Part shown: positions 30,401 to 41,956 of the stretch, piece by piece | How the letters are laid out: every line of letters begins with the position of its first letter | Position numbering within the stretch: position 1 is the stretch's first letter | From: Actinomadura macra NBRC 14102 | Lineage (GTDB): Bacteria > Actinomycetota > Actinomycetes > Streptosporangiales > Streptosporangiaceae | Assembly: GCF_001552215.1 (NCBI RefSeq) | Contig: NZ_BCQT01000018.1 | Coordinates: 124,001 to 188,000, forward strand | DNA length: 64,000 bases | Direction of reading: 5' to 3' | Made by a program: the position numbers and the translations under genes | The notes under the pieces: generated by a model | The model's input: only the letters and a program-made list of their open reading frames with translations | The model's database searches: none | What the model was told of the DNA's origin: nothing

Positions 30401-31671
30401 ACGACCTCCAAGGTCTCGGCGGGCGCCAGGTGCGTGTCGAGCCCTCGATAGAGCGAGATCGCCAACCCGAGCGGATTGGCGTAGTCCAGCAGAAGGCGCC
30501 GTGCAAGCAGGTGCACGACGTCTCCGATGCGGGTCCCGCGCTCGAAGAACAGCCGGAAGAACTCCATGGCGTAGTCGCGGGCGAACCGCGGCGTCACGTC
30601 GACCTGGGGGCCGACCAGGCAGTTCGCGCCGGCGCCCAGCAGCAGTTTGCCGAACGACGGGTGGTACATCGAGCCGAGCCGTCCGCCCTTGCAGGCGTTG
30701 AAGAAGATCACGGGTCCGGAGCCGAGCCGCTGCCCGCCCAGCCAGCCGGCCAGGTCGCTTTCCGAGACGGCCTCCCCGTCGCCCAGCTCGAACTTCGTCG
30801 GCCCGGAGCCGCCCTGACCATCCGATGAGGCGTGCAACCCGAAGTAGCTGATCTCGTCCTCCAACTGCCCGTTCCGGTAGGCGCGGGCCAGGGAGTGCCA
30901 GTCGCTGCGGACGTCCGTCCGCCGGGCGTGCTCCCGGAAGAAATCGATCATCGGTGCGACGCAGCGGGCTCTCGGGAAGTCCTCGTCCAGCCGGGGATCG
31001 ACGTTCATGCCCACCAGCGGCCGGTCTCCCGCCCGGCACAACCGGGAGTCGAACTGCGCGTCCCGTTCCGTCACGTGTTCGAGCAGGTGCCGGCATCCCC
31101 AGAAGCCCAGCGGGTCGCAGTCGGCGTCGGGGTCGTAGAAGTCGGCTTCCGAGTCCGTCGGGGTGTAGAGCATCGCCCAGGGGATCGACAGCATGTCCGC
31201 CCGGACCCTGATGCGCTGCTGCCCGGTGTTGAGCGCGTGGACGAGGACCTCGGAGATCTCCGCCATCTTCTCGCCGTCCTGGAAGAGGTGCCGGAACAGC
31301 AGGGTGCCCTTCCAGGCCAGCCTGCGCCTCATGTTCTGCTGGTCGGCGACGGGGATCACCCTGGAGACGTCGAAGTGGTTCTCGAACGGATACTCGCCCC
31401 GCTCGCCCTGGTAATAGGAGATGACCTGTTCGTCCCAGGTCTCGATCACCTCCCGGACGGTCTTCTCGATCACCTCCCTGGGCTGGCGCAGCATGCCCTC
31501 AAGCTCGCCGCCGCCGTCCTCGCCGAACCCCGTCCATCTCATGAGCAGCCGGAGTCGGTCGCCGAACTGGTCGAAACGCAGCTCTATCGTGCGGCTGCGG
31601 CACAGCTCGTTGGTCGGGATGCGGCGCTTGCTGTTGTCGTAGGTGGAACGGAAAGGGGGGTCTTCGGTCAT
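30397..31671 (-). CDS. CHAT-domain (caspase-like) protease
   Basis: 424 residues from ATG 31671, overlapping the NB-ARC stop by 4 bp; the longer open frame is a shadow. The N-terminal 200 residues are a helical/beta region with no family I know. The CHAT fold follows: FGLHASSDG with catalytic His280, then VIFFNACKGG with catalytic Cys327, and GAGANCLVGPQVDVTP. CHAT proteases are caspase relatives found in bacterial conflict and cell-death systems (for example the Craspase protease). Here the likely activator is the double NB-ARC protein encoded immediately upstream. Confidence 0.88.
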   Translation of the reverse strand: MTEDPPFRSTYDNSKRRIPTNELCRSRTIELRFDQFGDRLRLLMRWTGFGEDGGGELEGMLRQPREVIEKTVREVIETWDEQVISYYQGERGEYPFENHFDVSRVIPVADQQNMRRRLAWKGTLLFRHLFQDGEKMAEISEVLVHALNTGQQRIRVRADMLSIPWAMLYTPTDSEADFYDPDADCDPLGFWGCRHLLEHVTERDAQFDSRLCRAGDRPLVGMNVDPRLDEDFPRARCVAPMIDFFREHARRTDVRSDWHSLARAYRNGQLEDEISYFGLHASSDGQGGSGPTKFELGDGEAVSESDLAGWLGGQRLGSGPVIFFNACKGGRLGSMYHPSFGKLLLGAGANCLVGPQVDVTPRFARDYAMEFFRLFFERGTRIGDVVHLLARRLLLDYANPLGLAISLYRGLDTHLAPAETLEVV

Positions 31672-34600
31672 CGATGCGTACTCGCTCCGGCTTCCGCTGT
31701 CACGTCGAAGTCCCCCGTGATCTCGTGCAGCAGGAACCCGGTCCTCGCCTCGTACACCCTGACGCGCACGGCCAGCGCGCCGGGATGCCCGGGGGTGAAG
31801 GCGAAGGTGAGCGGCCGGTCGATCCCGTCCGGCGTCAGGACGCCGGTCCGCGACGCGGGACGCACGGGCAGGTCCCCGGCCAGGACGATCACCCGCATTT
31901 CCAGCCGCGAGGGGATCGGTGTCGCCTCGCCCCCCTCCTGCCAGCTGATATCGACGCCGAGCGTCTCGGGGCCGTCGGCGTGCATCGGCTCGTCGCGCTC
32001 GCGCCGGGCGGTGACGAAGAGCCCCGGCAACTCGTCGTCCCCGGCATCGGCGGCGACGGGCGGTCCGTCGTCCGCGCGGGGCCCGGCGATATGCCCGGGC
32101 ACCGGACCGAGCGCCCGCCGGACGAGCCGGGCGCGGAGCCGGCGGCGCATGGCCCTCGCCGCGACCTCGTCGCCGTGCCGTGCGAAGAGCCGCTCCGCGC
32201 GGCGATAGTCCTCCAGCGCCCCGGTGAGGTCGCCCGCCTGCCGGCGCGCGTCGGCGAGCAGCGACAGCGTCACCGCGAACGAGTAGGTCTCGTGCTCGGT
32301 GAACCACCGCCCGGCCCTCTCCAGGGACGAGATGGCGGCACGCTGGTCGCCGAGCCGCAGCAGCACCTCGCCCCGGATCTGCGCGAGGCCCGCGGCCTGC
32401 CGCCGCGCGCCGACGTCGGGCACCTCGCACAGGATCCGCTGCGCGTCGTCCAGCTGCCGCACGCACTCCTCGGTCTGCCCCGCGTACAGGAGCGCCCGCG
32501 CGTAGGCGAGCCGGGCGCGCACCCGCCCGATCGGACGTCCGATCCGGTCGAAGGACCGGACCGCCCGCCCGGCGAGGGTCGTCACCTCCTCGGCGTCCGG
32601 CGTCCGTCCGTGTCCGCGGGGCCTGGACGCGCGGCAGTGCAGGTACAGCTCGACGCGTTCCCCGTCGAGCGCGGCCCCGTCGGCGAGTTCCTCGCGGCAC
32701 AGCACGCGCGCAGCGTCCAGCGCCCGCTCCGCGACGGTCACGTCCCGCCGCCGTCTGGCGCGGCGCGCCTCCAGCACCCCCGCGAGGATGCGCGATGCGG
32801 GTGGCTCGTCGGAGCCGAGTTCGGGGACGGACGCGCCGGACACCCAGCGGCCGGCGCCGTGGCCAGTGCCGCGTCCCGCGCGCGCCTCGTGCTGCACGGC
32901 GCACAGGAGCAGCCCTTCGGCGCCGACCTCGGCGTGGGCGTCGGTGGGGGAGACGGCGCGGATGGCCTCGTCGGCCTCCCGGTGCAGGCCGATCTCGTGC
33001 AGCGCGTGGCCGAGCCGGCGCCCCACCTCGACGCGGCGGGTCCCCGACAGCGGCATCTCCTCCAGCGAGCGCAGCTCACTGATGGCCAGGGGGTAGTCGG
33101 TGACCGTGCTTAGGTAGCCCGCCCGGGCGATCCGGACGTCGATCTCCCCCTCGACGGAACCCTCCGTCCGCGCGGACTCCACGGCGAGGGCGAACGCCTC
33201 GCGGACGGTCTGGTGCCGGACCGGGGAGGCATAGCAGTCGCCGATCCGCGCCGCGATGTGCCGGCAGGCCGCGTGCGCCTCCCGCCGGTGCGCCTCGTGG
33301 ACGGTACGGACGAGGTTCCCGAACTCGGCGCGCACCCACGCGGGCAGATGATCGGCGATCATCGACTCCCAGCCGGGGATCTCGGGGAACCAGGTGTCGG
33401 GCGCGTCGTCGGTCCAGGGCGGCTGGATCTCGGGAATGTCGAGCCTGGCGAGCACCCGCAGTGATCCTGTGAGGTAGGCGTGCCGGAACCGCGACCGGGC
33501 CTGGACGAGCCTGGCGCGCGTGATGTCGCCGCAGGCGATCTGCCGCCTGGCGAAGAGCCGCATCAGCGGGCTGAGGCGGTAGCGCGCGAAACCGGCGACG
33601 TCCTGGCCCTGGATGTCCAGGAGCCCGACCCTGCTGAGGGACGTCATCAGGTTCCCCGCCTGGTCGGAGCCGATGCCGAGCAGGGGTTGGAGCACCCAGG
33701 GGACGAACGTCCGCGACTCCGGGATCGTCAACAGCAGCAGAGCCTCGCGCTCCTCCTGCTCCAGGTCGGCGTACTCGCTCTCGAACCGCTCCGCCACGTC
33801 CCGGCCGCCGTAGCGCAGGAACTCCAGCCGCCTCCCCTCGTCGCGCAGATGCGCGAGGGTCGGCTCCAGCCCGTGCCGCCGCGACCGGTCGGCGGCCACC
33901 CGCAGCGCGTTCGTCTGGCGACCGCACAGCTCGACGGCCTCGGCGACGAGATGGGGCGGCGGCGGGCCGTCCGTGCCGGCCGACCAGCGGAAGATCCGGG
34001 TCGCCTCGTCCTCGCTCGGGACGCCGAGGGCCACGGTGTGCTGCGCGCGGCCCGCCATGAGGCCGGCCCTGCTGGTGATGATGACCGTGCAGCCGCTCTC
34101 GGCGGGCAGGACGGCCAGGACCTGCTCCAGGCTGCGCGCCGCGTCGAGCACGATCAGCATGTCCCGATGGACGGTCACGGCGCGGAACATCCCCGCGAGC
34201 GACTGCGCGTCCAGCCCCTCCAGTTCCCCTTTCGTGCGGCCGAGTTGCCGCAGCAGGTCGTACAAGATGTCCCGGGGCGGGCGGGGCCCACCGGCCGTTC
34301 CCATGTTGGTGAAGAGCTGCCACTTCCCGTAGCTCGGGCCGATGCGCAGCGCGAGCTGCTGGGCCAGCGCCGTCTTCCCGACCCCCGGGGGCCCATGGAT
34401 CGCCAGGACCAGGGGCGTGCCCGGCGGATGGTCCCGCCTCCAGGTGTCATGGTGGTCCGTCAACTCCCGGAGCTGCTCCTCCCGGCCGTGGAAGGAGGGC
34501 AGCTCGATCCGCTGGGGCCGCGCCACCGGCACGAGCGGGGTCTGCCGGCTCCGGAACGGGACGAGCCCGAGCAGGAACGCGCCGAGCACCAGTGCCGCGA

Positions 34601-37115
34601 ACTGTAACTGCGGGTCGGGCAGCAGCAGCTGGAGGGCGAGTGCCGCGACCGCGACCGATCCGGTGACGACGTCCCACAGCCGCGGCGGGGAGGCGAGGCC
34701 CGGCCGGCGCGGGAGACGCCACCGGCGGGGGAGGCGGCCGGTGCTGTGCCTGCGTCGCCGCCGGCTCTCTCCCCAGAGCCGGAGCTTGGCCGGCCGGACG
34801 AACCATAACCGCGTCCGGTGCCGCGCCTGGGTGGCCAGCGACCATCCCCGGATGTACTCCAGCTGAAAGTAGGACGCGCGTACCTCGCGCAGCAGCCTGC
34901 GGCTGTCTCCGTAGCGGGCCCGGACCTCGTAGGCCAGCGCCAGTTCCATTCTGGCGTGTGTCCAGATCAGCAGATCCCCGCAGTTGCTGAACGTCTCCAC
35001 GGACTGCCGCAGGACGCGCACCGCCTCCCTGGCACGCTCGCTCCGCAGGTAGAGGCGGCCGAGTTCGTACTGGCAATGGGCCACCCCGAAGCGATGCCTG
35101 AGCTGCGTGAACGCGTCCAGGGACTGGAGTGCGTACCGCTCCGCCGCCTCGCGTTCGAGCCGCTCGATCGCGATGCCCGCGCGCAGGTGGTCGATCCACG
35201 GGGTGTACAGGGACTGCCGGCCGCTCTTGGCGATGTGCTCCTCGGCCTCGTCCAGGATCTCGAAGGCGGCGGGGTGGTCCCTGCCGATCGAGAGCACCCG
35301 CGCGTGCGTCCACAGCACGGCGGGCAGCAGGTGGCCGCACTCCGCCGGGTAGGTCTCGCAGTGATGCCTGGCTTCGAGGCAGTCCTGGAGCGCTTTGATC
35401 GCGTCGTCCGGTGCGCCGCGCGTGCAGAGCGCCATGGCGTTCGCGAGCAGGGCGTGGACCTGCTCGGGACGGTTCTCCAGGACCTGCGCCATCTTCACCG
35501 CCTCCGCGGCGTGCTCGACGGACGCCTCCAGCCGGTTGCGGTGCCGTTCGATGCGGCTGAGACAGCGCCGCGCCTGGGCGATGCTCGCCGCGTCGTTCAG
35601 GGCGCGGTAGGCCAGGTCTTCGGCGACGAGGAGTTCGCCCAGCTCCGCGTACAGCTCGGCGAGTGCCGCGCAGGCGAGGGCCTCGTCCGTGCGCTTCCCC
35701 TCCGCCCGGGAGGCTCCCATGGCCTCGCGCATGGCGTAGATGGCCAGGGTGAAACCGCCGTGCTCCTGGAGCAGTTCGTCGAGGCTCTGGGTCCGGTCGT
35801 GCGGTGGCTGCGGAGGGCCCCCGCCCTCCGGCCCGGCGGGCGAGGAGCCGCTGCGGCGAGGGCGCTGCGGCGTGCCGCGCAGCAGGGCGGCGTACTTGAG
35901 GACGGTCTCCTCAACCCGGTACGACGTTGCGGCGGAGTTCGGGTTGTAGCGTTCGATCAGCCCGGCGTCGGCGAGCCGCGCGGCGAGGCGCCCGGCGTGC
36001 CGCTCGTCCGTCCCCAGCACCCGGCTGAGCATCCGCGGCGTGAAATGCGGGCGCTCCAGCCTGTACAGGGCGCTCAGTGCGTCCTGCTCGTTGCTGGTGA
36101 GAAGCGCGTAGACGGCGTCGAACCAGCGAGGCTGCTGGTCGTCGCCGTGCCGCAGCAGGGAGACGGGGACTCCGGCGGGGGGCCGCGCCTGGGACAGGAC
36201 GAGTTGCAGGGCCCAGTTCGGCCGGCTGGCCAGGGCCGTGCCCGCCATGCGTAACGCCAGCGGTTGCCCCTGGCACTGGCGGGCCAGCGCCTTCGACTGG
36301 TCCAGCTCGTTGTCCACCCGTTGCGCGCCGATCGTGTTCCGCAGCAGGTCGAGGGCCTCGTCGTGGCGGAGAGCCATGAGCGAGATGTCGGTGGCCGGGG
36401 AGCCCGCCAGCCGGGGCCTGCGTGGACAGGTCGCGATCAGCAGGCTTCTGGGGCCGCTCGGCAGGAGCGGTGTGAGATCGAAGTCCGGGCCGACGTCGTC
36501 GAGCACGATCAGCACTCGGCCCGAGGTCAGCTCGGCATAGCGTTTCCTGAGCGCGGCCTCGCCGGACGGCAGTTCCTCGTCGGGCTTCTTCAGCGCCCGG
36601 ACGAACTTCTCCAGGATCTGTTCGGTGAGGTCGGACGGATTGTCCTCGTGCCATACCCGCATGTAGAGCTGACCGTCGTGGAACTTGCCGGCGACCTGGT
36701 GCGCGAATGTGATCGCCAACGCCGACTTCCCGATTCCGCCGGGGCCGTGGATGATCGCGATCGATGTGCGGGACCGGCGCGCGGGCGGGAGTTCGTCTTT
36801 CAGCCTGCGGATCTCGTCGACCCGCCCGACGAAGACGGGTGGGGCGGGCGGGAGTTCCCGGGGGACGAGGTATTCGTGTTCGGACGCCTGGGGTTCGGTG
36901 GCGCCGAAGGGGACGACCGTGTTCAGCGATTGCATCCGCGAGCGGATGGTCATGCTGCTGAAGACGAACATGACGAGGACCAGAATGGCGGTGATGTAGA
37001 GACTTTTTTCACGGGGGAGCGAGGTGGCCGCGAGCAGAACTAAGAGGATCAGCGGCAGCGCGACTATGAATCGGATATTTCGCCCAGAAGGGTCGCCACC
37101 AAACTCTGTCTTCAT
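31668..37115 (-). CDS. Membrane-anchored double NB-ARC/TPR STAND protein
   Basis: 1815 residues from ATG 37115 (an alternative start lies 10 codons upstream). Order: two membrane helices at the N-terminus (about 14-55); NB-ARC 1 with GPGGIGKS (about 124-131) and RVLIVLDDV; winged helix; a TPR array (about 440-800); a second hydrophobic pair (around 815-850); NB-ARC 2 with GPPGVGKT (about 908) and DMLIVLDAA; a further TPR array; and a C-terminal beta-sandwich-like domain (LTFAFTPGHPGALAVRVRVYE). STAND NTPases oligomerise when their repeats sense a target. Two complete ATPase-repeat units in one chain are uncommon. NB-ARC 2 lacks the second Asp of the classic LDD motif. Confidence 0.88.
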   Translation of the reverse strand: MKTEFGGDPSGRNIRFIVALPLILLVLLAATSLPREKSLYITAILVLVMFVFSSMTIRSRMQSLNTVVPFGATEPQASEHEYLVPRELPPAPPVFVGRVDEIRRLKDELPPARRSRTSIAIIHGPGGIGKSALAITFAHQVAGKFHDGQLYMRVWHEDNPSDLTEQILEKFVRALKKPDEELPSGEAALRKRYAELTSGRVLIVLDDVGPDFDLTPLLPSGPRSLLIATCPRRPRLAGSPATDISLMALRHDEALDLLRNTIGAQRVDNELDQSKALARQCQGQPLALRMAGTALASRPNWALQLVLSQARPPAGVPVSLLRHGDDQQPRWFDAVYALLTSNEQDALSALYRLERPHFTPRMLSRVLGTDERHAGRLAARLADAGLIERYNPNSAATSYRVEETVLKYAALLRGTPQRPRRSGSSPAGPEGGGPPQPPHDRTQSLDELLQEHGGFTLAIYAMREAMGASRAEGKRTDEALACAALAELYAELGELLVAEDLAYRALNDAASIAQARRCLSRIERHRNRLEASVEHAAEAVKMAQVLENRPEQVHALLANAMALCTRGAPDDAIKALQDCLEARHHCETYPAECGHLLPAVLWTHARVLSIGRDHPAAFEILDEAEEHIAKSGRQSLYTPWIDHLRAGIAIERLEREAAERYALQSLDAFTQLRHRFGVAHCQYELGRLYLRSERAREAVRVLRQSVETFSNCGDLLIWTHARMELALAYEVRARYGDSRRLLREVRASYFQLEYIRGWSLATQARHRTRLWFVRPAKLRLWGESRRRRRHSTGRLPRRWRLPRRPGLASPPRLWDVVTGSVAVAALALQLLLPDPQLQFAALVLGAFLLGLVPFRSRQTPLVPVARPQRIELPSFHGREEQLRELTDHHDTWRRDHPPGTPLVLAIHGPPGVGKTALAQQLALRIGPSYGKWQLFTNMGTAGGPRPPRDILYDLLRQLGRTKGELEGLDAQSLAGMFRAVTVHRDMLIVLDAARSLEQVLAVLPAESGCTVIITSRAGLMAGRAQHTVALGVPSEDEATRIFRWSAGTDGPPPPHLVAEAVELCGRQTNALRVAADRSRRHGLEPTLAHLRDEGRRLEFLRYGGRDVAERFESEYADLEQEEREALLLLTIPESRTFVPWVLQPLLGIGSDQAGNLMTSLSRVGLLDIQGQDVAGFARYRLSPLMRLFARRQIACGDITRARLVQARSRFRHAYLTGSLRVLARLDIPEIQPPWTDDAPDTWFPEIPGWESMIADHLPAWVRAEFGNLVRTVHEAHRREAHAACRHIAARIGDCYASPVRHQTVREAFALAVESARTEGSVEGEIDVRIARAGYLSTVTDYPLAISELRSLEEMPLSGTRRVEVGRRLGHALHEIGLHREADEAIRAVSPTDAHAEVGAEGLLLCAVQHEARAGRGTGHGAGRWVSGASVPELGSDEPPASRILAGVLEARRARRRRDVTVAERALDAARVLCREELADGAALDGERVELYLHCRASRPRGHGRTPDAEEVTTLAGRAVRSFDRIGRPIGRVRARLAYARALLYAGQTEECVRQLDDAQRILCEVPDVGARRQAAGLAQIRGEVLLRLGDQRAAISSLERAGRWFTEHETYSFAVTLSLLADARRQAGDLTGALEDYRRAERLFARHGDEVAARAMRRRLRARLVRRALGPVPGHIAGPRADDGPPVAADAGDDELPGLFVTARRERDEPMHADGPETLGVDISWQEGGEATPIPSRLEMRVIVLAGDLPVRPASRTGVLTPDGIDRPLTFAFTPGHPGALAVRVRVYEARTGFLLHEITGDFDVTAEAGASTHR

Positions 37116-37280
37116 CAAGACCCCCGTTGACCGATCGTGCCCCAATGGTGAGGCATCGAAGGCCGGATGTCATCGTCACAGGAAGGGCGTACAAGAAGCT
37201 GTGCGATTTCGGTTCAGGTGAATCGAGCGGGGATCGTGGCCGAAACCGGGACGTGCTCGGGAAGATCACTAATAGCCGCG

Positions 37281-37805
37281 CTAGACCGGCCCGCGCGCCG
37301 CCTGCTGAGAGCTGAGAAGTGCGCTGAAGAACGTTTCAGCCTCCCCCCGCCGCAGGTCCAGGAGCAGTGTCATCAACTCCTGGGCGGCCTGGTCGCGCAG
37401 GGCCGCCATGTCCGGCGCCGCCGATCTCGCGATGTCGGCGTCCTTGCGTTTCCACGTGACGTAGGCGTCGTGCACGACGATCTCGGTGTTGCGGAGCATC
37501 ACCCAGAGTTGGTCCCAGTGGTAGAAGGAGCGCAGCGCGGTCAGCACCGAGATCGTGACTCCGGCCAGGGCGAGGACCACCGACTTGCCGTCGTACTTCA
37601 GCCCCGCGGCCAGGGGCAAACCCGCGCCGATCAGGATGACCAGGATGCTGGTCACCCGGAAGAAGCGCCGGTGCCACCGCGCCCGAAGATCGTAGAAATC
37701 GCGGACCTTGAGCGCGTACGCCTCGACCGACGCGGGGAAACCCGCGTCCGGGGGCACCAGGGGCGGCTGGAATTTCGGTGGTCCGGAGGAACGCGCGAGT
37801 CGCAT
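37281..37805 (-). CDS. SLATT/DUF4231-like two-TM protein
   Basis: 174 residues: a short Pro-rich start, a helix rich in Arg/Tyr (YALKVRDFYDLRARWHRRFF), two membrane helices with a tight turn (about 50-68 and 74-94) and a C-terminal helix with many charged residues. This is the pattern of the SLATT superfamily (SMODS- and SLOG-associated 2TM effectors, DUF4231 included), proposed to make membrane pores in nucleotide-signalled or STAND-linked defence. It is first in line before the double NB-ARC gene (166-bp gap), so cotranscription is plausible. Confidence 0.68.
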   Translation of the reverse strand: MRLARSSGPPKFQPPLVPPDAGFPASVEAYALKVRDFYDLRARWHRRFFRVTSILVILIGAGLPLAAGLKYDGKSVVLALAGVTISVLTALRSFYHWDQLWVMLRNTEIVVHDAYVTWKRKDADIARSAAPDMAALRDQAAQELMTLLLDLRRGEAETFFSALLSSQQAARGPV

Positions 37806-37961
37806 CCAGATGTTCCGTTCTCCGCGGGCTATCGGTGGTTCTCTCCACTCTCATACACTCTTGGAACGTACCCATCGAAGAAGAACTCGTCAGCGAGTCT
37901 CACGGCGCTTTCCTCCTGCGCCGCCGAGCACACCGCGAACGCGATCACCATCGCCGCGCTT

Positions 37962-38933
37962 TCACCGGGTCGAACGGGGCAGGCGCGAGAGCCAGCCGTC
38001 CAGGACGCCGTAGGCCGTCCGCCGCGCCTCGTCCCCGGACAGGAGCACGTCGTGCACGGCGTCCCGCACGACCTGGACGGTGACGTCCGCGCCGAGGCGC
38101 GGCGCCAGCCTCCTGATCGCCGCGACGTCGAGCACGCAGTCCGAACGGCGCAGCAGGGCGGGCGACGCCCGGCGGCCGCTGCTGCGAGAACTGCACAGCA
38201 CCAGCACGGGCACCGTGATACCGAGACCGGCGTGCACGGTCCGCTGCCCTGCGTGGACCGCCGCGAGCCACCCCAGCCGCAGCCGGGTGCCGCTCGTCGA
38301 CTTCCAGTCCTCGTCGAAGTCCCATATCCCGTCATGGGCCCGGTGCAGGCTCCGCGGATAACGGGGGGACATCTGTCCGGGAAAGGCCGCCAGCGGCCGG
38401 CGGCTCGCGGCCCGACTCAACAGCGGATCCAGCACCGCGCGCATCGCCAGCGGCACTCCGCTGCTGAGGAACGGGCTATTGAGACACAGCGCGGAGACAG
38501 GCCCTCCCGGCTCCTGCACAGCCAGCCATAATGCGCTGACGAGCCCGCCCATGGAGTGGCCTAAAAGGAGAACGTCGTCATGCCCGTCCCCCTCTGATAC
38601 GACCCGTATGGCGGCGTCGAGGTCGTCCAGGTAGTCGCTGAGGGAACGGCAGTGAAGCCGCGTTTGATGAGGGCGCCAGGAACGGCCGCACTTACGCAGA
38701 TCCAAGGCGTAGAAGTCGCGTCCCCGCGCGACGAGGAAATCCGCGAGTTCGGTATTGAAGAAGTAGTCGTTGTATCCGTGCAGGCACAGGACCGCGCCGG
38801 CCCCTCCACCCGGTGCCGCCCGCCGGACGAGGGTCGCGCACACGGGCCCCTCGCCGTCCTCGCCCATGGGCAGCTCGATCGCCTCATAGCCGGGCCCGAG
38901 TACGTCGGGCCGCGCGTCGGACCATGGGCTCAC
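37962..38933 (-). CDS. Alpha/beta hydrolase (Hydrolase_4/monoglyceride-lipase type)
   Basis: 323 residues, cytoplasmic. AVLCLHGYNDYF gives the HG oxyanion motif, FYALDLRKCGRS the DLRxxGxS motif of serine aminopeptidase S33/monoacylglycerol lipases, LLGHSMGG the nucleophile, and DAVHDVLLS the catalytic His near the C-terminus. It sits between the CHAT-like gene (51-bp gap) and the SLATT gene (156-bp gap) on the same strand. Whether it belongs to the upstream kinase/CHAT-like pair, to the STAND operon or to neither is open. Confidence 0.82.
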   Translation of the reverse strand: MSPWSDARPDVLGPGYEAIELPMGEDGEGPVCATLVRRAAPGGGAGAVLCLHGYNDYFFNTELADFLVARGRDFYALDLRKCGRSWRPHQTRLHCRSLSDYLDDLDAAIRVVSEGDGHDDVLLLGHSMGGLVSALWLAVQEPGGPVSALCLNSPFLSSGVPLAMRAVLDPLLSRAASRRPLAAFPGQMSPRYPRSLHRAHDGIWDFDEDWKSTSGTRLRLGWLAAVHAGQRTVHAGLGITVPVLVLCSSRSSGRRASPALLRRSDCVLDVAAIRRLAPRLGADVTVQVVRDAVHDVLLSGDEARRTAYGVLDGWLSRLPRSTR

Positions 38934-38984
38934 GACCGCAGCCTAGGCGAGAAAGGGAGTTCGCGCCCAGGAGGTCCTTCCCCT

Positions 38985-39905
38985 CTAGGGCGCCGGATGC
39001 AGGACGGTCGTGAACCACCGGCTCCAGTCGAGTTGGGGCTTCTGGAGCTGGGCGAGGTGGAGTGCGGTTTCGAGGGCCCCTTGCAGTTCGCTCTCCCCGG
39101 CATGACCCCCCGCCAATGCCGCCAGTTCCCCCAGGACATGCGGGTAGAGGACGGCGGCATGGCCGGGCGGGACGGCATCAGAACTGCCGAGGAAGGCCAC
39201 CGGACGGTCGAGGCTGCGTCTCAGCGCCCTCGTATGGGCCGCCGAGGCGCCGTCCTCGCAGCCGAGGACGATGACGCGGGTGCGCAGACCGGTGCCGTCG
39301 GCGCCGCGCAGGTCGGTGAGGTCCAGCCCACCGACCAGCAGGCGCGTGGACGCGGAGTGGCAGTGGTCGTCCAGGAGGACGACCGGTGCCGTCCGGATGG
39401 CCTCCCGGCGGCGGTCCGGGTTGTCGGTGACGCACAGGTGGACGTCCAGCGCGGCGAGCCCGGAACACTGCTCGTCCACCGTGCGGAGGCGCCGGGCGAT
39501 CCCGGTGGTCCGGCTGCGGGTGACGAGTGCGACGGGCAGGGGGCGCGGCAGCGCCCCGTTCGGAGCGGGCGCGACGCGCGGAAGGAACGCGGGCAGGTGC
39601 GGCAGCAGGTGTTCGGCCTCCCTGTCGTGAACCTTCACGTTGAGGGACCCGGAGCCGTCGGCCCTGACCTCGCACTCGATGGTCAGGACGACGTCCGCCA
39701 GCGGATCCTGCGGCTCGCCGTCCGGCTCCCGGCCGCTGTCGATGACCCCGGTGACCGTTCCGGTGAGGGCGGTGATCGTGCCGACCGTGATCCAGGCCAG
39801 CACATTCCCCTGTAGGTCGGTCGCGATGTTGACCGCGACGCCCAGCGCGGACGCCGACACGGCGGTGGCGAGGCCGACGAGCAACGGCCGGACCCTGCGG
39901 CTCAT
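38985..39905 (-). CDS. Membrane-anchored CHAT-like protein
   Basis: 306 residues. Two membrane helices (about 7-27 and 34-55) are followed by a soluble domain with VVLLDDHCHSAS, then LDLTDLRGADG, VIVLGCEDGAS and RPVAFLGSSDAVPPGHA. The spacing of His181/His183 and Cys216 and the LGCEDG motif resemble the H...(L)xxCxxG pattern of CHAT peptidases, so I read it as a divergent CHAT-type fold. The match is by eye only. It overlaps the pseudokinase stop by 4 bp and is thus cotranslated with it. Confidence 0.6.
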   Translation of the reverse strand: MSRRVRPLLVGLATAVSASALGVAVNIATDLQGNVLAWITVGTITALTGTVTGVIDSGREPDGEPQDPLADVVLTIECEVRADGSGSLNVKVHDREAEHLLPHLPAFLPRVAPAPNGALPRPLPVALVTRSRTTGIARRLRTVDEQCSGLAALDVHLCVTDNPDRRREAIRTAPVVLLDDHCHSASTRLLVGGLDLTDLRGADGTGLRTRVIVLGCEDGASAAHTRALRRSLDRPVAFLGSSDAVPPGHAAVLYPHVLGELAALAGGHAGESELQGALETALHLAQLQKPQLDWSRWFTTVLHPAP

Positions 39906-41956
39906 GGCCGCGCCCTGGCGAGCCCCTCGCGGGCCCGCGCCATGATCTGTTCCAGCCCGCCCGCGGATCCCTCGGCGTCGAGGACGGCGGCGAAGATCGT
40001 CTCCGCCTGATGCAGGTCGCCGTCCCGCAGGTAGAGGAAGCCGAGGTTGGTCCCCGCCCGGAGTGTCGCCGGATGGCCGGGCCCGAGCGTGCGGATGCGG
40101 ACGTCGCGGACCTCCCGGAGCCGGGCGAGGGCCTCGTCCAGCCGTCCGCGATCGGCGAGCAGCGCGGCAAGGCCCGCCTGCGCGACGAGCGTCTGCGGGT
40201 GGTCGCCGCCGAGGATGGCGCGGGAGCGTTCAAAGGACTCCCGTAACAGCGCCTCAGCCCTCTCGGGCTCCCCGAGATCGCGCTGCACCGCCCCGAGGTT
40301 GGCTTGGAGGGCCAGAGTCCTCGCGTCGTCGGGCCCGAAGGACCCCACGGCGGTCTCCAGCGCCTTCGCCGCATCCCGGGCGGCCTTCTCCAGCCGTCCA
40401 GCGCCGTGCAGCGCCACGGCCAGGTTCCCGCGGATGACCGCGTCCGCCGGACGCCCGCTCGCCGCGGCCGAGAGCGACGCCCGGAGCTGGTCGGGGCCGG
40501 CGAGCCCGCGTTCGAACCGGAGAGCGGCGAGGTTGGCCCGCACGCGGCGCCCCACATCCGCGGAGGAGTTCTCCAGGGCCGCGGACAAGGCGGTGTCGGC
40601 GGCTTCGGGTCTGCCGAGCCCGCGCAGCGCCACGCCCAGATTGTTCCGGGCGATCACCGCCTGCGGATCGTCCGCCGCGAGCGAGCCCACGAGGTCGCGG
40701 AGGGCCGTCTCCGCCGCGCCGTACTCCGCTCTGCCGATCAACCGCAGCGCCTCGGCGTTGCGCCGCCCGACCCGGCGGTGGTCGGCCGTGATCCGCCACC
40801 GCCGGAGGCGGACGGCGAGGACGTAGACCATAGCGATCACGGCGGCGATGGCGATCGGCGCCAGCGCGACCCACGACCGGCCTGTCCGCGTGCTCCAGAC
40901 GACCCCTGCGGTGCAGGCGAGGATGAGCACCAGTGCCATGAGTGCCGAGCGCCAGGGGGACTGCCCTGTCCCCCTCCCACTGAAAGGAGGAATGATCCCC
41001 GAGGCAGGCCGGGGTCGTGGGGCCGTGTAAGGCTGCTGCGGGATCGGCGCGGGCCGCGAGGCCATCCCGGCCCCCTCGGGCGGCCCCGTGTCGCCGCCCG
41101 GCCGCACCGCCGGTGGCGCCCGGTGCGTGCGGGTGGAGGTCGTGTCCCACTCGTCGTCGAGGTCGAGGTCGAGGTCGTCGTCGGCGTCACCGGTCATCCG
41201 GACCAGCGCGTCGGCGGTGGGACGGTCGGCCGGAGCCTTGGCCATCGCCGAGCGGAGCATCGGGAGCATCGCGTCCGGCACGCCGTCCAGGTCGGGCGTG
41301 CCACGCATGATGTTGAGGAGGATCGACTCGAACGGGCCGGAGCCGAACGGCGGCCGCCCGGTCGCGGCATAGGCGAGGGTGCCCGCCCATGCGTGCACGT
41401 CCGAGGGCGGCCCCGATGCGCCGCCCTCGATGATCTCCGGCGCGAGGTAGCCGCCGGTACTCCCGATCATGATGCCGGTGGCGGTCAGCCGGGTCGAGTC
41501 GGCGAACTGGCCGAGGCCGAGGCCAACGCCGACGATCATCGGTCCGCCGCTGGTCATCAGCACGTTGCCGGGTGTCATGTCGTGGTGGACGATCCCGGCG
41601 CGGTGGAGCGCCGCCATCGCCGACGCGAGGCCGGCGGCCAGCATCCACAGGTCCCGCCCGCCGAGCGGGCCCAGCGTCTCGACGGTCTCCTCAAGCGTCC
41701 GTCCCCGCACGTAACGGGTCACGATGTAGGGCAGGTCGGCGTCGAGGTCGGCGTCGAGAACCTCCGCGATGTGCGGTTCGCGTACCTGTCGGAGCGCCGC
41801 TGCCACGCGTCCCAGCCGGTGGCGCACCGTCTCGTCGATCCCGGGTGCGAGTACCCGCACCACCACCGCGCGATCGTCCGGGGCCGTCGCGAGGTACATG
41901 ACGCCCATGGCGTCTTCGCCGAGCGTCCGGAGCACCAGGTAGCCGCCGATACGCAT
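39902..41956 (-). CDS. Ser/Thr pseudokinase with membrane segments and TPR array
   Basis: 684 residues. The kinase-like domain (1-255) has a P-loop LGEDAMGVMYLA, but the beta3 VAIK Lys is Arg34 (VVVRVL) and the DFG Asp is replaced (IVGVGLG, Gly143). HRD is HHD (124-126) with the catalytic-loop Asn131 kept, and LAPE and DVHAWAGTLAYAATGRPPF are intact. After an acidic/Pro-rich linker come two membrane helices (337-353, 362-382) and tetratricopeptide repeats (395-680) of the kinesin-light-chain kind (RTLALQANLGAVQRDLGEPE). Two missing catalytic residues argue for a non-catalytic scaffold or sensor. Confidence 0.85.
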   Translation of the reverse strand: MRIGGYLVLRTLGEDAMGVMYLATAPDDRAVVVRVLAPGIDETVRHRLGRVAAALRQVREPHIAEVLDADLDADLPYIVTRYVRGRTLEETVETLGPLGGRDLWMLAAGLASAMAALHRAGIVHHDMTPGNVLMTSGGPMIVGVGLGLGQFADSTRLTATGIMIGSTGGYLAPEIIEGGASGPPSDVHAWAGTLAYAATGRPPFGSGPFESILLNIMRGTPDLDGVPDAMLPMLRSAMAKAPADRPTADALVRMTGDADDDLDLDLDDEWDTTSTRTHRAPPAVRPGGDTGPPEGAGMASRPAPIPQQPYTAPRPRPASGIIPPFSGRGTGQSPWRSALMALVLILACTAGVVWSTRTGRSWVALAPIAIAAVIAMVYVLAVRLRRWRITADHRRVGRRNAEALRLIGRAEYGAAETALRDLVGSLAADDPQAVIARNNLGVALRGLGRPEAADTALSAALENSSADVGRRVRANLAALRFERGLAGPDQLRASLSAAASGRPADAVIRGNLAVALHGAGRLEKAARDAAKALETAVGSFGPDDARTLALQANLGAVQRDLGEPERAEALLRESFERSRAILGGDHPQTLVAQAGLAALLADRGRLDEALARLREVRDVRIRTLGPGHPATLRAGTNLGFLYLRDGDLHQAETIFAAVLDAEGSAGGLEQIMARAREGLARARP

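Follow-up and report, generated by a model that had tools for sequence, protein, structure and literature searches.

A putative pseudokinase-tetratricopeptide membrane protein and its membrane-anchored partner with a predicted CHAT-like fold in Actinomadura macra

The overlapping gene pair and its domains

The window analysed here, a stretch of 64,000 nucleotides of contig NZ_BCQT01000018.1 from the 9.04-Mb genome of Actinomadura macra NBRC 14102, carries two minus-strand genes whose products combine a kinase fold, tetratricopeptide repeats (TPRs), transmembrane (TM) segments and a predicted CHAT-like fold. The first gene (39902..41956) encodes a 684-residue kinase-fold/TM-hairpin/TPR protein, as judged from its open reading frame, its Pkinase and TPR matches and its predicted model. 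The second (38985..39905) encodes a membrane-anchored partner of 306 residues, delimited by its open reading frame and by the alignment of ten family members. The two genes share a 4-nt ATGA overlap, and the coordinates and frames given for them in a first-pass annotation of the sequence are correct. Because the overlapping pair recurs in relatives, it is no chance arrangement. Our literature search found no published account of the pair, but its coverage of subscription papers was poor and the absence of such an account is therefore unproven. In what follows, G labels denote sampled genomes (A. macra being G000) and L labels extracted loci.

Residues 1-262 of the first protein (41171..41956, minus strand) form a degenerate AfsK-like kinase domain. 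The protein matches Pkinase with an E-value of 1.6e-20 (Pfam), and in its predicted model (mean predicted local distance difference test score, pLDDT, 79.0) the kinase part superposes on PknA with a VIA Z of 30.5 over 260 residues. The closest relative found, 62% identical, is an AfsK-like kinase encoded in the same genome (locus L120), in which all five motifs altered in the A. macra domain are intact: GEDAMG, VVVRVL, HHDMTPGN and GVG stand where the paralog has GEGGMG, VAIKVL, HRDMKPGN and DFG. The substitutions R34 for the beta3 lysine and G143 for the DFG aspartate, and the retention of the catalytic-loop Asp and Asn (HHD126, N131) and of APE (APE172), had been described before and are as described; three further changes, in the glycine loop (GEDAMG), the HRD arginine and the KPxN lysine (MTPGN), had been overlooked. 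A predicted kinase fold that has lost its catalytic motifs places the domain among the putative pseudokinases. That designation is supported for the A. macra copy when set against its intact paralog, but not as a general trait, since some sister pairs have intact kinases. In kinase trees the domain groups with AfsK-like kinases (branch support 99/99, and 100/99 after removal of long rows). AfsK kinases carry a beta-propeller. The AfsK model of NCBIfam is the best for the paralog (240 bits) and gives 150 bits for the 684-residue protein, neither of them reaching the full-length equivalog cut-off of 1300 bits. Kinase-domain matches at E <=1e-60 occur in all 65 genomes of the genus sample, with seven placed in the tree. 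L120 itself (G000:C14:12000-16500) holds three kinase genes in tandem; the paralog is the middle one, and the third has pseudokinase-like motifs of its own (AHGDLGPGTV).

Two TM helices follow at residues ~338-381 (40814..40945, minus strand), with Kyte-Doolittle peaks of 2.13 and 2.61 and model helices at 334-358 and 366-408. The remainder, residues ~413-684 (39905..40720, minus strand), is a predicted TPR superhelix with a TPR_12 match at E 1.9e-33 (Pfam) and helix pairs at 412-682 in the model. These repeats match the general TPR_10/TPR_12 models and the TPR models of FxSxx systems, which do not single out TPRs of the CHAT-docking kind.

The partner begins with a 2TM/beta-hairpin module, residues 1-95 (39621..39905, minus strand), defined by the alignment. 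The two N-terminal hydrophobic stretches claimed for it are there (Kyte-Doolittle maxima 1.91 and 1.43), with helices at 7-32 and 35-58 in a low-confidence part of the AlphaFold2 model. The C-terminal domain, residues 115-306 (38988..39563, minus strand), is by contrast predicted confidently from the ten-member alignment, with ten-residue block means of 77-97 from residue 121 onward. Compared with Protein Data Bank structures by VIA-align 2, residues 115-304 match the transmembrane anti-sigma factor DdvA (Z 12.9), a SAVED-CHAT protein (12.7), separases (10.3-12.0), Csx29 (11.8) and caspases (~9.5), a clan-CD fold at Z ~9 to 13. By title, all of the 50 structural rows listed are CHAT, separase, gingipain, paracaspase, C11-protease or caspase entries save for two of DdvA. 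The Foldseek E-values are modest (DdvA 4e-4, separase 5e-3). Structure prediction had been named beforehand as the way to put the CHAT assignment at risk, and the predicted fold of the 306-residue protein is indeed related to caspase and CHAT folds, so that a CHAT/separase/caspase fold of this domain is supported by modelling. The sequence itself gives no significant Pfam, NCBIfam or PADLOC match for the domain, and a search of the A. macra genome with PF12770 matched four other places and not the pair locus. The earlier description of a CHAT-like domain hence stands by predicted structure but not by sequence profile, and membership in the Pfam CHAT family by sequence is rejected.

In clan CD the His/Cys dyad is placed after strands 3 and 4, and CHATs usually have a His-Gly motif. 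In the partner model H181 lies directly after the strand 175-180, and C216 is the final residue of the strand 211-216, putting both at candidate dyad positions. D179, D180, C182 and C216 are invariant in all ten aligned partners, as are H224 and H249, and H181 is kept in seven. The H-x-H motif once proposed as part of the active site is rejected, as H183 occurs in the A. macra partner only. The suggestion that His and Cys are spaced like a CHAT dyad was only roughly right: H181 and C216 exist, but the spacing is 35 residues in A. macra and 30-39 across the family, as opposed to 40-51 in 24 of 27 bona fide CHATs from relatives (a motif search, in which the value of 51 probably reflects a mis-picked His and the pattern yielded no dyad in the other three). 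H181 is kept wherever the kinase is intact (three members) and missing only where the kinase is degenerate, a remnant or absent, the numbers being small.

Occurrence and divergence of the pair among relatives

The 4-nt overlap is found in all eight unsplit loci (A. macra, G059, G021, G055, G042, G048, G041 and G233, with the partner start chosen at the overlap in G042 and G041), and also at a contig start in G037. In G019 the partner is split over two contigs. G037 has its kinase-TPR gene at the end of one contig and its partner at the end of another, and these were counted as one pair. Genomic co-occurrence of the two genes, proposed earlier as a check on their coupling, is borne out both by this recurrence and by G014, where the corresponding locus lacks the two together. 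There the order metH, FAD oxidoreductase, hydrolase, SLATT, NB-ARC is conserved, with flanks of 84% and 90% DNA identity, while the stretch corresponding to 38954-41940, that is, both genes except for 16 nt at the start of the first one, is missing, leaving 14 bases between the matching flanks. Because the pair is present in the wider clade, loss in G014 is a simpler history than gain. Relatives of the FAD oxidoreductase (E <=1e-180) occur in 10 of the 65 genus genomes; the first gene of the pair adjoins in four of them (G000, G021, G037 and G059), while a search of the 1.5-kb flanks of the relative did not reveal it in the other six.

Within the genus the pair is present in 9/65 genomes (ten were listed, and a weak match in G036 of 20.6 bits was dropped). 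In the order sample 24 of 345 genomes matched, ten with a full or near-full match and 14 with the N-terminal part only; in a 298-genome search 15 matched, ten of them weakly or partially, the full or near-full ones being G000, G055, G019, G037 and G233. The class sample gave the full profile at E <=0.01 in 4/394 genomes, full-length in the A. macra genome only, and the 2TM module in 3/394. A tblastn search of 72,556 plasmid records returned no match (phage and viral collections were not searched), and a plasmid-borne system is rejected on that count.

In two other genera (G073 on the one hand; G227, G331 and G338 on the other) the gene next after a kinase-TM-TPR gene encodes a 2TM/beta-hairpin protein lacking a CHAT-fold domain. 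Gene order, TM-TPR part and 2TM/beta-hairpin module are as in A. macra; the kinase is intact in G227, has the K-to-R change only in G073 and is degenerate in G331 and G338. The module also adjoins other kinds of genes. Since such related pairs do without a CHAT domain altogether, the 2TM/beta-hairpin part seems to be the core module of the partner. In G313 the kinase-TPR gene (L121) is seemingly split into two overlapping frames, possibly by a frameshift or a sequencing error.

The kinase end of the first protein also varies among the ten CHAT-bearing pairs. It is intact in three (G037, together with G042 and G048 in the first of their two domains), degenerate in five (A. macra, G059, G021, G055 and G041) and a remnant or absent in two (G019 and G233). 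The double kinases, at L019:10680-13586 and L020:10484-13402, have the intact domain followed by a pseudokinase (HRN, DYG) and then TM-TPR. In the upstream gene of the G233 pair (L126:9757-12408, minus strand), an N-terminal region with, by eye, hydrophobic segments of its own stands in place of the kinase; this input region of the 884-residue product has no Pfam match. Judged by sequence, the input domain, which may be intact, dead, a remnant or replaced, varies independently of the output domain, which some pairs have and others lack. The constant core is the TPR scaffold with the 2TM partner; the input is exchangeable and the CHAT-fold output optional.

The phylogenies suggest one such exchange in the A. 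macra lineage. The TM-TPR tree, which was built without G037, joins A. macra, G059 and G021 (100/100), and the partner tree joins A. macra, G037, G059 and G021 (99/99), so that the two agree for the A. macra clade. The kinase tree conflicts with both, placing the A. macra domain inside the AfsK-like clade (99/99) and apart from the kinases of G059 and G021 (100/98). This conflict suggests that the kinase module was probably replaced in the A. macra lineage. In approximately unbiased (AU) tests, for groups picked after the first kinase tree was seen, p was 0.013 for a kinase grouping of A. macra, G059 and G021 and 0.041 for the grouping that also includes G037. The kinase trees omit five fragmentary rows, and the second of them three more long ones.

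Neighbouring genes and related systems

Downstream of the pair on the same strand (31668-38933) lie genes for an alpha/beta-hydrolase, a SLATT (DUF4231) protein and an 1825-residue protein with two NB-ARC/TPR halves. They occur at the same locus of G014 without the pair, at ~80-88% protein identity, and are rejected as parts of its unit. No match to the hydrolase, SLATT or NB-ARC genes is listed within the ~20 kb surrounding the pair in either G021 or G059, and a SLATT relative is also present in G009, a genome without the pair. In Actinomadura terrae (L001:9000-16400) the genes downstream of the pair are, by eye, SWIM-like, vWA-like, MoxR-like and further large ones.

One of the closest known likenesses is to TPR-CHAT/Csx29 (Craspase), which shares with the pair a TPR and a CHAT-fold domain under partner control; Csx29 and TPR-CHAT entries match the partner C-terminal fold with Z 11.8 (8eex) and 10.2 (7y85). 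Unlike Csx29, in which TPR and CHAT lie in one protein, the A. macra pair consists of two separate TM-anchored proteins with a kinase-fold input, and it lacks a match to the CHAT sequence family. None of the five window proteins scanned is a Cas7-11, the scan having covered those five only. The AfsK-like Ser/Thr kinases resemble the first protein in tree grouping and in the identity of the kinase domain to the A. macra paralog, whereas the A. macra domain has altered catalytic motifs and is fused to TM-TPR. The best structural match of the partner C-terminal domain, DdvA (8rw5/8rot; 160 residues, root-mean-square deviation 3.0), is known to us by its entry titles; our literature search found no paper on its structure, and none of the five window proteins that were scanned is a sigma factor.

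A membrane two-gene caspase system, EACC1-caspase, is described in a published survey (PMC7159879). It is likewise actinobacterial and membrane-associated and has a caspase-superfamily domain on one of its two proteins. The pair differs in its anchor, whose two hydrophobic helices belong to the CHAT-fold protein itself, and in its kinase-TPR partner. Neither gene matches PF19953 (EACC1), the pair locus being negative at E up to 1, and the EACC1-caspase system is rejected as the identity of the pair. EACC1 does occur elsewhere in the A. macra genome; in one place, at L039 and L134 (G000:C10:353335-354116), a gene with this domain adjoins a caspase-like open reading frame. The same survey (PMC7159879) reports two kinds of domain at the effector position of vWA-MoxR systems: disrupted kinases, akin to actinobacterial ones that are fused to a beta-propeller or to PASTA, and caspase domains, ~70% of them inactive. 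By analogy, the A. macra pair would follow this vWA-MoxR/EACC1 theme of dead kinases and caspase domains, while it stands outside those systems by the features tested.

A possible membrane switch and its alternatives

The domain make-up, the gene coupling, the agreeing trees and the joint absence in G014, as read from sequence, and the fold, as read from prediction, lead us to propose that the pair is a modular two-gene switch at the membrane whose TPR and CHAT-fold domains are cytosolic, a reading to which we give about even credence. In the first protein a TM hairpin would join a kinase-fold input to a TPR superhelix, both of them cytosolic; the second would have a 2TM/beta-hairpin anchor and a cytosolic CHAT-fold output domain. 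Because the TM segments of both look like hairpins, the kinase, TPR and CHAT-fold domains probably all face the cytosol, and contacts between the TPR and 2TM parts might hold the two proteins in one membrane complex. In the A. macra lineage the former AfsK-like kinase perhaps serves as a binding or conformational sensor, or as a docking domain, with no phosphotransferase role. A signal acting on it could cause the TPR part to release or reshape the CHAT-fold domain, which might then act on a membrane-proximal substrate. The simplest such action would be H181/C216 proteolysis where both residues are kept; members lacking H181 would act by binding instead. The pair looks like a membrane-bound variation on the known TPR-CHAT theme, for which we infer proteolysis, a ligand and a biological role.

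Several observations weigh against this proposal. Three of the ten pairs have intact kinases, in which phosphorylation signalling is possible. The structural neighbours listed for the 684-residue model cover the kinase domain and hence hardly probe the TPR part, and the partner model is poor towards its N terminus, with a pLDDT mostly below 60. None of the ten partner members matches Pfam CHAT at E up to 10, and hhalign of the partner family against the 27 CHATs is essentially negative (probabilities 0.1 and 0.3%). H181 is Arg in G055 and G233, which form one clade, and Val in G019; if ancestral, it would have been lost in two lineages. A kinase grouping of A. macra with G037 is not rejected by the AU test (p 0.073), which leaves the proposed kinase replacement moderately supported by these tests. 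Lastly, a linkage of the pair to defence is not established: G014 has the neighbouring hydrolase, SLATT and NB-ARC genes but not the pair.

The partner sequences also bear on a different scenario, in which the CHAT-fold domain is a non-catalytic binder of a peptide or partner. Both halves would then act as scaffolds, and the output would consist in assembling or sequestering something, a regulator for instance. We regard this as a serious possibility, if somewhat short of probable. Arg or Val at position 181 in three of ten members is what one would expect of it, as is a dyad spacing shorter than in the 24 of 27 CHATs with a measured dyad; that the best structural match is, by entry title, an anti-sigma factor, and that most effector-position caspase domains in vWA systems are reported inactive in PMC7159879, point the same way. 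It sits less easily with a C216 that is invariant in ten of ten members and with the retention of H181 in every intact-kinase member. The intact kinases themselves (that of G037, the leading domains of G042 and G048, and that of the CHAT-less G227) would instead fit an ancestral first protein that was an active Ser/Thr kinase phosphorylating the partner or the TPR, with the A. macra copy a decayed relic kept for its TPR. This we consider improbable, given that TM-TPR and partner persist whether the kinase is intact, altered or absent, and that the reading frame of the A. macra domain is still open and its kinase fold predicted with confidence. Finally, the 2TM module might itself be the effector, a small membrane-disrupting hairpin restrained by the TPR, with the CHAT domain added optionally for processing or anchoring. 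The module does stand by itself next to kinase-TM-TPR genes in the two other genera, and one stand-alone 2TM protein gives a non-significant SLATT_1 echo (NCBIfam, E 0.54, below the cut-off; the A. macra partner has no SLATT match). However, the module also occurs beside other gene kinds, as expected of a general anchor, and we consider this scenario the most doubtful of the alternatives.

Returning to the membrane switch, a more specific version of it can be drawn, which we hold only tentatively and think rather unlikely as a whole. A dead AfsK-like kinase, captured onto a membrane TPR scaffold and sensing a ligand or a partner kinase, would gate a membrane-tethered caspase-fold protease, with the input and output enzymes swappable or kept as pseudoenzymes and the intermediate states found in sister genomes. 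If the switch proposal is correct, the TPR-CHAT switch gains a membrane-anchored, two-protein form with a pseudokinase input. The relatives would then offer a natural series (intact kinase, kinase and pseudokinase in tandem, pseudokinase, remnant and replaced, with or without the CHAT-fold domain) in which the roles of the parts can be compared, and the pair would bear on the retention of dead kinases and dead caspases in actinobacterial signalling and conflict systems.

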